From contig CAIOZA010000093.1 of the NCBI GenBank assembly GCA_903862655.1, positions 1-55,795 of the forward strand: a stretch of DNA of 55,795 nt, written 5' to 3'. The DNA is from an uncultured Ignavibacteria bacterium (GTDB taxonomy: Bacteria > Bacteroidota > Ignavibacteria > Kapaibacteriales > UBA2268). Of this stretch, positions 38,786 through 40,476 are shown piece by piece (positions within the stretch are counted from its first letter, which is position 1; every line of letters starts with the position of its first letter). Under the pieces are notes generated by a model that was given only the letters and a program-made list of their open reading frames with translations, made no database searches and had not been told where the DNA came from. The position numbers and the translations under genes are program-made.

Positions 38786-39724
38786 TTATCCCTTTATTAG
38801 CTGTAAGAAAGCCTGTGGATTTGCGTTTGCCTGCGTCAATGAAATCAATGAAGCTTGCTGTAAGAATTGTGATTTTACAAGTTCAAGCTGTTCAACCGCA
38901 ACGTCAGCATCTTCAATTCTTGAAATAGCAGTATTATAGTTAACTATCTGATTCTTTAACAAATCTTCCTGTGAACCCAATCTCTGAATAATACCACCAA
39001 TGTAAGATGCAACTTTATTGACATTTGTAATAGCATTAGATATCGATGAAATAGTTAAGCTCATCTGTGCCGGATCGAATATTCCAAGATTTGTACTTGT
39101 TACATTATTCAACTGAGTTAAATCAAGACCGGTAATACCTGCAAAGCTACCTGTGGTTAAGGCGTTCATATTGAAGCCCGAAGAATCAACATTATACTCA
39201 GCTGTATTAACTGAAGATAAATCAACTCTCATAGTGATCAGATTATTAGAAGCATTAGATCCAATAACAAAATCAGAAGTAAATGATCCTGTCAACAACT
39301 GTTGACCACCAAACACTGTTGAGTCAACCACAGTTTGAATCTGCTGAACCATTCTGTAGGCAGCCTTAGCAAGCGCGATTCTTTCGTCAGTACCCATAGC
39401 ACCTGAAGCAGCACTTGCCGTAGCATCTTTGATTGTGACCAAAATATTATTAAGATTGTCCAATCCATCCATTGCTATATTAGAAACGTTAGTAGAATCA
39501 CCAACAGTTCTGAGAGCAATTTTTAGAGCACCGTTTCTGGATTGTAGAGCCCTTGACGTAATATACCCGGCCACATCATCACCAGCATTATTAATTCTTT
39601 TTCCGGTTGATAATCGCAACTGCCGTAGCGATATATTTTTGTTAGAAACTTCGAGAGCATTATATGCATTCTCGGCAGGCGTATTAGTTCGAATTCTGGA
39701 GCTACCTCCAACTGCAAATGGCAT
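38786..39724 (-). CDS. fliC: Flagellin
   Basis: A 312-residue flagellin. The N-terminal D0/D1 helices read NTPAENAYNALEVSNKNISL, LRLSTGKRINNAGDDVAGY, and DGLDNLNNILVTIKDATA; the C-terminal half has LGSQEDLLKNQIVNYNTAIS, IEDADVAVEQLELVKSQFLQ and QASLISLTQANANPQAFLQL. The middle (about 135-225) is short, giving a compact filament subunit. It is secreted by the flagellar type III apparatus, so no signal peptide is present. The Shine-Dalgarno GGAGGTGA, 3-4 nt before the ATG, is the strongest in this part of the window. The leader is long and structured (see next entries). No other flagellar gene is nearby. Confidence 0.93.
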   Translation of the reverse strand: MPFAVGGSSRIRTNTPAENAYNALEVSNKNISLRQLRLSTGKRINNAGDDVAGYITSRALQSRNGALKIALRTVGDSTNVSNIAMDGLDNLNNILVTIKDATASAASGAMGTDERIALAKAAYRMVQQIQTVVDSTVFGGQQLLTGSFTSDFVIGSNASNNLITMRVDLSSVNTAEYNVDSSGFNMNALTTGSFAGITGLDLTQLNNVTSTNLGIFDPAQMSLTISSISNAITNVNKVASYIGGIIQRLGSQEDLLKNQIVNYNTAISRIEDADVAVEQLELVKSQFLQQASLISLTQANANPQAFLQLIKG

Positions 39725-39785
39725 AAGTCACCTCCGTGTGATTAAAAAAATTTATTCCTTAAATTTTTGCCGTATTTATATTTTT

Positions 39786-39864
39786 CATCATTACTATTTA
39801 AGTGTAGCAGAAACTTCCTGTTTCGATTTACATCCTGTAAAGTGCCTGCACTTAAATAATGATG
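39786..39864 (-). promoter_or_regulatory. Structured flagellin leader with two GGA-loop hairpins (putative CsrA sites)
   Basis: Read on the minus strand, CATCATTA-TTTAAGTG (39864-39849) pairs with CACTTAAA-TAG-TAATGATG (39804-39786), a 16-bp stem with one 3-nt bulge. Enclosed are two adjacent hairpins: TTTACAGGATGTAAA (39841-39827) and GAAACAGGAAGTTTC (39824-39810). Each puts GGA in a small loop, and the first carries ACAGGATGT, close to the CsrA SELEX consensus. The element ends 61 nt before the flagellin ATG. It would be the first thing transcribed from the promoter just upstream. Confidence 0.68.
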
Positions 39865-39883
39865 TTTCAACAAAACTACTCTT

Positions 39884-39900
39884 TACAAGTTGCGTGCCAA
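39884..39900 (-). promoter_or_regulatory. Sigma-54-like promoter of flagellin
   Basis: TTGGCACGCAACTTGTA on the minus strand. TGGCACG-N4-TTG fits the -24/-12 consensus with correct spacing (GG to the -12 pair, N10), but the -12 pair is GT instead of GC. The start site would be about 39873, 8-9 nt before the structured leader. A Bacteroidota-type promoter was looked for here and not found. Confidence 0.42.
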
Positions 39901-40476
39901 AAAAGTCAAAATATTAAACCAATTTAATTTCCACCTTGTAATTTAAAAATTCAAAATGTAGCAAAATTTATGAAAAATAATTCCTCTTGTAAATCGCATA
40001 AAATCACACTATTAATTTTATTTTGTAAAATTATGCATATCGATTCTATTGTAATTATTTTTTGCTCTATTTTTAAAGCTAGAATTTTAAGGATAAATAG
40101 ATATACATATTCAAAATTGAAATTTTCAAATTTGGTTAAGATTATTCAGCTGTCGATTTTTAGCCATAATTTAAATCTATCCAAGATTAAATGTGTTATT
40201 ATTAATCAAATATGATCGGGAAAACATTTTTCTTCAATTTTTTCTCTATTGTAATTATTTTTCATTGCAAGTAGAAATAACTGTATATCGGCTATAGATC
40301 AAGCCAATCGGCATTATTTGCGTGATTTTGTGGACAACTATTTTCAATTTTCTTAATTTCAAATGCTTGAGAGTGGAATTATTTCTCTACGGATTGGCAG
40401 TAAAATCTTCATTTTCAATATCACAATCAATTAAAAAGAGTGCTCTGGGTTGTTAATTTGGGTTGTTTTACACAAA
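39901..40476. other. Large AT-rich intergenic region
   Basis: About 575 bp with no gene that I can support. The 18-mer TCTATTGTAATTATTTTT occurs twice (near 40045 and 40245). An 81-codon frame at 39970-40215 has a very AT-driven composition (Ile, Lys, Ser, Phe) and looks spurious. Confidence 0.45.

Follow-up and report, generated by a model that had tools for sequence, protein, structure and literature searches.

The flagellin leader in the window

The window, the whole stretch of 55,795 nucleotides that was analysed, comes from contig CAIOZA010000093.1 of an uncultured Ignavibacteria bacterium. On its minus strand lies a gene for flagellin, preceded by a leader of unusual architecture whose features are collected in Table 1. 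The original prediction had placed here a promoter-like box, a bulged stem and two hairpins with GGA in their loops, and direct reading finds each of these at the positions claimed. The two arms of the stem pair over 16 bp, interrupted by one 3-nt bulge. The same prediction had spoken of a "compact two-site platform." This undercounts; the leader has four GGA sites rather than two, and hairpins 3 and 4 were not on the original list.

Table 1. Positions and strand of the flagellin gene and of the elements of its leader
Feature	Coordinates	Strand	Basis
Flagellin gene (312 aa) with a type-A leader	38786..39724	-	59-73% identity to flagellins of 25 related loci
Sigma-54-like promoter TGGCACGCAACTTG (GG-N10-GT)	39886..39899	-	direct reading of sequence
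Outer stem, 5' arm CATCATTATTTAAGTG	39849..39864	-	direct reading and pairing probabilities
Outer stem, 3' arm CACTTAAA-TAG-TAATGATG, 3-nt bulge	39786..39804	-	direct reading and pairing probabilities
GGA hairpin 1 TTTACAGGATGTAAA, TTTACA-GGA-TGTAAA, CAGGAUG core	39827..39841	-	direct reading
GGA hairpin 2 GAAACAGGAAGTTTC, GAAAC-AGGAA-GTTTC	39810..39824	-	direct reading
GGA hairpin 3 AAAAATTTA-AGGAA-TAAATTTTT, 9-bp A+T stem	39746..39768	-	hairpin scoring
GGA hairpin 4 = Shine-Dalgarno (SD) hairpin TCAC-ACGGAG-GTGA	39728..39741	-	loop is the ribosome-binding site

Promoters recognized by sigma-54 have the consensus GG-N10-GC. Here, the GG-N10 spacing is exact, GT replaces the consensus GC, and the genome has a gene for RpoN. 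Judged from the position of this box, transcription probably starts near 39874, and the outer stem begins about 10 nt downstream of that predicted start.

The four GGA triplets of the leader (39835, 39818, 39758 and 39735) can each occupy a hairpin loop. Counted back from the start codon, they lie at 111, 94, 34 and 11 nt, which makes their spacings 17, 60 and 23 nt. A flagellin leader controlled by CsrA and FliW is expected to hold a GGA in a loop that overlaps the SD sequence, and such a loop is found at 39741-39728. By precedent, a second hairpin is expected some 18-21 nt upstream; hairpin 3 agrees with this, its GGA lying 23 nt from that of the SD hairpin. Hairpin 1 carries ACAGGATGT, which may be compared with RUACARGGAUGU, the site described from SELEX experiments with CsrA, where it fell mostly within hairpin loops (PMC7652899).

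To be counted in the 154-nt stretch holding the leader, a hairpin had to have GGA in its loop, at least four Watson-Crick pairs and a score of at least 10 (8 in a looser version), and the stretch was compared with 20,000 dinucleotide shuffles of itself. The leader has four such hairpins at the stricter cut-off, whereas 0.3% of the shuffles have at least two and none of the 20,000 has three or more. At the looser cut-off, 0.085% of the shuffles have at least three GGA hairpins and 0.005% have four. Likewise, three upstream GGA hairpins of the strength seen in the window appear in none of 500 shuffles. The region 39780-39900 folds at -27.6 kcal/mol, as against -19.4 +/- 3.4 kcal/mol for shuffles (z -2.43; 3 of 200 equal or better).

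The three-way fold that had been proposed for the upstream element fares less evenly. Its outer stem stands, with pairs at probabilities of 0.81-1.0 in the ensemble, except for four (at the bulge and the inner end) at 0.53-0.68. The fold as a whole is not the one of minimum energy; in the 79-nt core it lies at -17.1 kcal/mol, 4.6 kcal/mol above a minimum of -21.7 kcal/mol. That minimum fold differs from it and breaks both inner hairpins, so minimum-energy folding was rejected as proof of the three-way structure. In the ensemble, hairpin 1 pairs with probability 0.29-0.45, hairpin 2 with 0.52 and hairpin 3 with 0.15-0.41, and the G and A residues of the GGAs at 39835, 39818 and 39758 are unpaired at only about 0.4-0.55. 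The SD hairpin pairs at 0.63-0.75, with its GGA unpaired at 0.96-0.99.

The window gave no Rfam match at the gathering score. Two weak matches in 39600-40100 (E 0.34 and 0.42) are far under it, and seven related loci gave none at E 0.1.

CsrA, FliW and leaders of the same type in relatives

Control by CsrA presupposes, of course, a CsrA. The genome search that the original prediction had called for finds one gene each for csrA (C107:52609-52764, E 4e-21) and fliW (C107:52196-52522, E 1e-23); the two adjoin each other, 3' of a gene that, named by eye, resembles motB. The CsrA has 100 amino acids. Aligned with solved CsrA chains, it keeps L4 and R44, residues that are important for RNA binding by CsrA. 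It also has a C-terminal extension past the matched domain, and CsrA and FliW each match chains of entry 5dmb (5dmb_A for FliW). In CsrA of the Bacillus type, an extended C-terminus is described as the part held by FliW (PMC7652899). Genes for both RpoN and FliA are present in the genome.

The same association holds across the family, where 49 of 54 genomes have flagellin. Among these 49, csrA is found in 46, versus one of the five genomes lacking flagellin (Fisher p 5e-4, relatedness ignored); fliW is likewise found in 46, versus none of the five (p 2e-5, with the same proviso). The flagellin genomes with no match are G001, G004 and G019 for csrA, and G001, G013 and G019 for fliW. The assemblies of G001 and G004 are in at least 400 contigs each, and that of G019 is 76% complete.

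For comparison, 114 leaders were collected, 110 from flagellin starts and four from the first genes of tandem pairs. Types were assigned by eye from the leader itself, not from a protein tree. This gave 48 leaders of the window's type (type A), 58 of a second type (type B), and eight second tandem genes that were set aside.

The sigma-54-like promoter that had been predicted recurs among the type-A leaders. In 41 of the 48, a TGGCAC-like box, followed at the proper distance by TTG, stands 62-262 nt upstream of the start codon, a pattern counted without a shuffle control. In 40 of these 41 boxes, the -12 element has GT or GA in place of GC, which is perhaps a preference of the lineage.

The SD hairpin also recurs. 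At a score of at least 9 it is found in 38 of 48 type-A leaders, versus six of 59 control starts with GGA. These controls are mechanical starts of open reading frames, taken from the window and from loci L003-L027, and they include flagellins that the filter missed (one of the six positives and one further row). The hairpin is absent at the set strength from ten type-A leaders: five from genus g22, two from genus g25, and L036, L080 and L062. All seven type-A leaders of g22 and g25 lack it, yet the genomes of these genera have csrA.

Covariation in the SD stem was examined in the 28 type-A rows (23 distinct) that were chosen by the register CAC-NNGGAG-GTG; the 20 left out comprise 11 with other registers, which include ATTATA-GTGGAGGTT-TATAAT and GTCA-CATGGAGGT-TGAC, and nine others. 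In every chosen row the loop is AYGGAG, with the GGA exposed. Across these chosen rows, 81% of the cells are paired, versus 25-54% when the arms are slid, and three pairs have changed on both sides. The covariation score of the 28 is 0.112, versus 0.071 in shuffles, 14 of 500 of which score as high. The four other measures are unexceptional in this alignment, being reached by 85, 90, 138 and 264 of the 500 shuffles. The right arm of the hairpin, GTGA, also lengthens the match to the 16S tail, and part of the stem could therefore be kept for that reason.

The 12-mer CACAYGGAGGTG occurs 33 times in the 54 genomes, and its reversed pattern 14 times. By comparison of coordinates, 29 of the 33 are at flagellin starts; of the four elsewhere, three were inspected, and none of these stands shortly before a plausible start. 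In the window's own genome, the single match is the window's SD site.

The upstream part of the leader behaves differently. Hairpins with GGA in their loops were expected to recur in related leaders, and they are commoner there than in shuffles: 12 were found in the 35 of 48 type-A leaders tested, versus 1.5 expected, with none of 500 shuffles reaching that number. The window itself supplies three of the 12. At the set score, 25 of the 35 leaders tested have no such hairpin, and several of the others are closely related to one another. The platform itself, with hairpins 1 and 2 enclosed by an outer stem, was seen by eye in none of the 47 other type-A leaders; the window's genus is otherwise absent from the 54 genomes. 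Thus the two-site platform does not appear as a kept element, and the kept part is the SD hairpin.

Two other arrangements were noted in passing. Runs of C (CCCCC) stand shortly 5' of the SD sequence upstream of flagellin in L032, L036, L037, L057, L058 and L137, and also before the first genes in L042, L044, L048 and L049, some of them in a hairpin loop. Such runs could pair with the SD sequence. The last four loci are the tandems of genus g15, where the second flagellin has the ribosome site AGGTG, without GGA; there, CsrA-type control may consequently reach the first gene only.

Covariation in the leaders of a second flagellin type

The genome has one other flagellin (C24:40267), 57% identical to that of the window, whose leader is of type B and has a GGA hairpin. 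Type-B leaders are about 70 nt long and often stand 3' of TAAAGTTT and GCCGATAA boxes; by pattern, a sigma-28-like box is found upstream of 32 of the 58. A loose pattern finds a hairpin of the GGCAGGATGCC type in 55 of 58 leaders, and 55 of 58 likewise have GGAGG at the SD position. The possibility that the GGCAGGATGCC element is itself a promoter was rejected: the sigma-28-like box is commonly a distinct element farther 5', and the stem covaries.

A model of type B, called R1, was built from 49 rows. In the family it gives 60 matches in 47 of 54 genomes, 56 of them at flagellin starts (many by construction) and one at a contig edge. The remaining three are weak (E 0.005-0.01) and belong to genus g23, where each precedes a fliE-like gene. 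The hairpin at these loci (L183, L184, L185) is ATAGTC-AGGAT-GACTAT, with the loop AGGAA in G041; the gene has the SD sequence TTACACGGAAG and sits behind flgB- and flgC-like genes, all named by eye. To judge from its sequence, this fliE-like gene is likely a further target of CsrA. The window's own leader was also considered as type B and rejected; R1 matches it at 39722-39792 with 29.4 bits, but the hairpin positions are gapped.

In the class as a whole, R1 matches 62 of 391 genomes, 28 of them outside the family. Of 31 outside-family matches 29 were examined: 27 lead into the N-terminus of a flagellin, one breaks off after three residues, and one precedes another gene. One match, in G161 (L202, G161:C222), has an 81-nt leader identical to one of G045, which belongs to another family; the G161 contig is therefore probably contamination. 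This row was retained in the class-wide match and csrA counts, while the covariation analysis counts identical rows once. With the row included, csrA is found in 58 of the 62 matched genomes, versus 105 of the remaining 329.

For covariation, 51 hairpins were assembled, 28 from outside the family and 23 from within it (about one per genus), of which 48 are distinct. Every one of the six pairs shows a double change somewhere. There are 43 cells with a double change, versus 16.1 in shuffles, none of 500 being as high, and the covariation score is 0.285, versus 0.123 in shuffles and at most 0.165 in slid versions. On four measures no shuffle of 500 is as high; on the fifth, the number of pair types, 214 are. 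The three inner pairs form in 48 of 48 rows, and the three outer pairs fail in 16 to 27. The rows were cut around core strings picked by eye, which favours paired cores, yet such picking does not account for the double changes.

Most of the loops read ANGGAN or AGGAN, and GGA is absent in L205, L214 and L226. In L205 and L214, two genomes of one genus that both have csrA, the hairpin is kept with the loops AGGGTA and AAGGTA.

The signal emerges only once the class-wide rows are included. Within the family alone (alignment A1, 49 of 58 leaders), the score is 0.098, versus 0.098 in shuffles; in that alignment the core is nearly invariant and some rows are misaligned. At the level of sequence, the class-wide covariation of this stem is the strongest evidence pointing to selection on GGA loops in the flagellin leaders of this lineage. 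Because the leader in the window is itself of type A, this evidence applies to it by analogy.

Probable control by CsrA, its precedents and its rivals

The mechanism by which CsrA and FliW control flagellin is already known; what is unusual here is a leader with four sites behind a sigma-54-like promoter. CsrA control of flagellin is reported for Bacillus (PMC7652899), Campylobacter (PMC4894983) and spirochaetes (PMC9481697). The closest tested precedent is the flaA leader of Campylobacter jejuni. It carries a pair of ANGGA stem-loops, of which the second covers the ribosome site, at a spacing of 21 nt, close to the 18 nt that suit a single CsrA dimer best; CsrA is described as binding this leader at about 50 nM, with FliW as antagonist (PMC4894983). 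The window resembles it in having a GGA stem-loop over the ribosome-binding site, a second about 20 nt off, and both csrA and fliW. The flaA structure shows compensatory changes in other Campylobacter species, and a sigma-28 and a sigma-54 flagellin share that genome (PMC4894983), much as the two flagellins of the window's genome stand behind a sigma-28-like and a sigma-54-like promoter. The flaA leader, however, has 45 nt, two hairpin sites and a sigma-28 promoter (PMC4894983), whereas that of the window has about 150 nt, four hairpin sites, a sigma-54-like promoter and a 16-bp stem around the upstream pair.

Other systems share parts of this. The hag leader of Bacillus subtilis has CsrA sites, one over the SD sequence, and FliW as antagonist; two sites are described for it (PMC7652899), compared with four candidate sites in the window and a long stem around two. 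The glgC leader of Escherichia coli has four CsrA sites, with a hairpin site just upstream bridged to the SD site, but it does not belong to a flagellin, and its CsrA is antagonized by the CsrB/C sRNAs (PMC7652899). In Treponema denticola, CsrA sites are reported near the SD sequences of flaB1 and flaB2 and fliW-csrA sits in a flagellar cluster; this is, of course, a spirochaete, and the description of it cited here does not include a four-hairpin layout (PMC9481697).

Taken from sequence and from these analogies, the window's leader is probably a translational control region, in which CsrA would repress flagellin and FliW would relieve the repression. That flagellin here is under CsrA-type control was also the original prediction; csrA, fliW, RpoN and the GGA hairpins support it, and the two-site platform turned out to be an incomplete account of the leader. 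By analogy, one CsrA dimer would bridge hairpin 3 (GGA 39758) and the SD hairpin (GGA 39735) across 23 nt, and so block the ribosome. A second dimer might occupy hairpins 1 and 2, whose GGAs (39835 and 39818) are separated by 17 nt and which the long stem would present; it would add affinity or hold CsrA on the message. As flagellin is exported, FliW would be freed to remove CsrA, and translation would start, as in Bacillus and Campylobacter.

A more elaborate version, unlikely as a whole, makes the leader two-layered: the downstream pair would shut the ribosome site through one CsrA dimer, the upstream pair would ride on a 16-bp stem that flips, and the two flagellins would differ in CsrA binding. 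The upstream element would then have two states, one closed and the other open with two hairpins, and CsrA would capture the open state, so that the flagellin message would both detect CsrA and absorb it. Should the sigma-54-like and sigma-28-like flagellins differ in their binding, the order of their synthesis would differ as well.

The SD hairpin alone might be a simple brake or a temperature-sensitive fold that works without protein, with csrA incidental; the hairpin is indeed short and probably melts easily, with the SD sequence in its loop rather than buried. Such a brake has no call for a loop that is AYGGAG with exposed GGA in all 28 aligned rows, for upstream GGA hairpins that recur in some leaders, for csrA and fliW tracking flagellin across the family, or for type-B leaders in which a GGA loop at some distance from the SD sequence is kept on compensatory stems, and it is accordingly quite improbable. 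The upstream part invites a different doubt. Its 16-bp stem begins about 10 nt past the predicted start, and the minimum-energy fold breaks both inner hairpins, as might be expected were the stem a 5' stabilizer against RNase or a protein-DNA operator, unrelated to CsrA, with the GGAs in loops by coincidence. The coincidence would have to be large: all three upstream GGAs lie in loops (0 of 500 shuffles), and three or more GGA hairpins in the whole leader occur in 0 of 20,000. This explanation is improbable too.

The upstream two-hairpin element may also be a sponge, in which case the plentiful flagellin message would draw CsrA off weaker flagellar targets. Its pair of sites, carried on a long stem with a spacing of 17 nt and distant from the ribosome site, would suit that role, and the flaA mRNA of C. 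jejuni is described as titrating CsrA from other targets (PMC4894983). The element was seen in none of the relatives' leaders inspected, and we regard the sponge as possible, if doubtful; it is compatible with repression by CsrA.

As to what is new, the groups that a 2015 survey lists as possibly using FliW do not include Bacteroidota, Chlorobi or Ignavibacteria in the part of it cited here (PMC4682653). Searches of the open-licence literature gave nothing on CsrA in Kapabacteria, nor on CsrA with FliW in Chlorobi; for CsrA with Ignavibacteria, and for CsrA with FliW and flagellin in Bacteroidetes, they gave unrelated matches only, to judge by titles and the starts of abstracts. Surveys of structured RNAs could hold a similar motif.

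The window thus presents a structured leader RNA without a match in Rfam, and flagellin leaders with a GGA hairpin recur across a dozen of the class's families. If the reading proposed here is true, CsrA governs both flagellin types in a lineage allied to the Bacteroidota that is known here only from metagenome-assembled genomes. These leaders would then be a family of natural CsrA sites on compensatory stems, one of use in finding out how the number and spacing of sites set repression.
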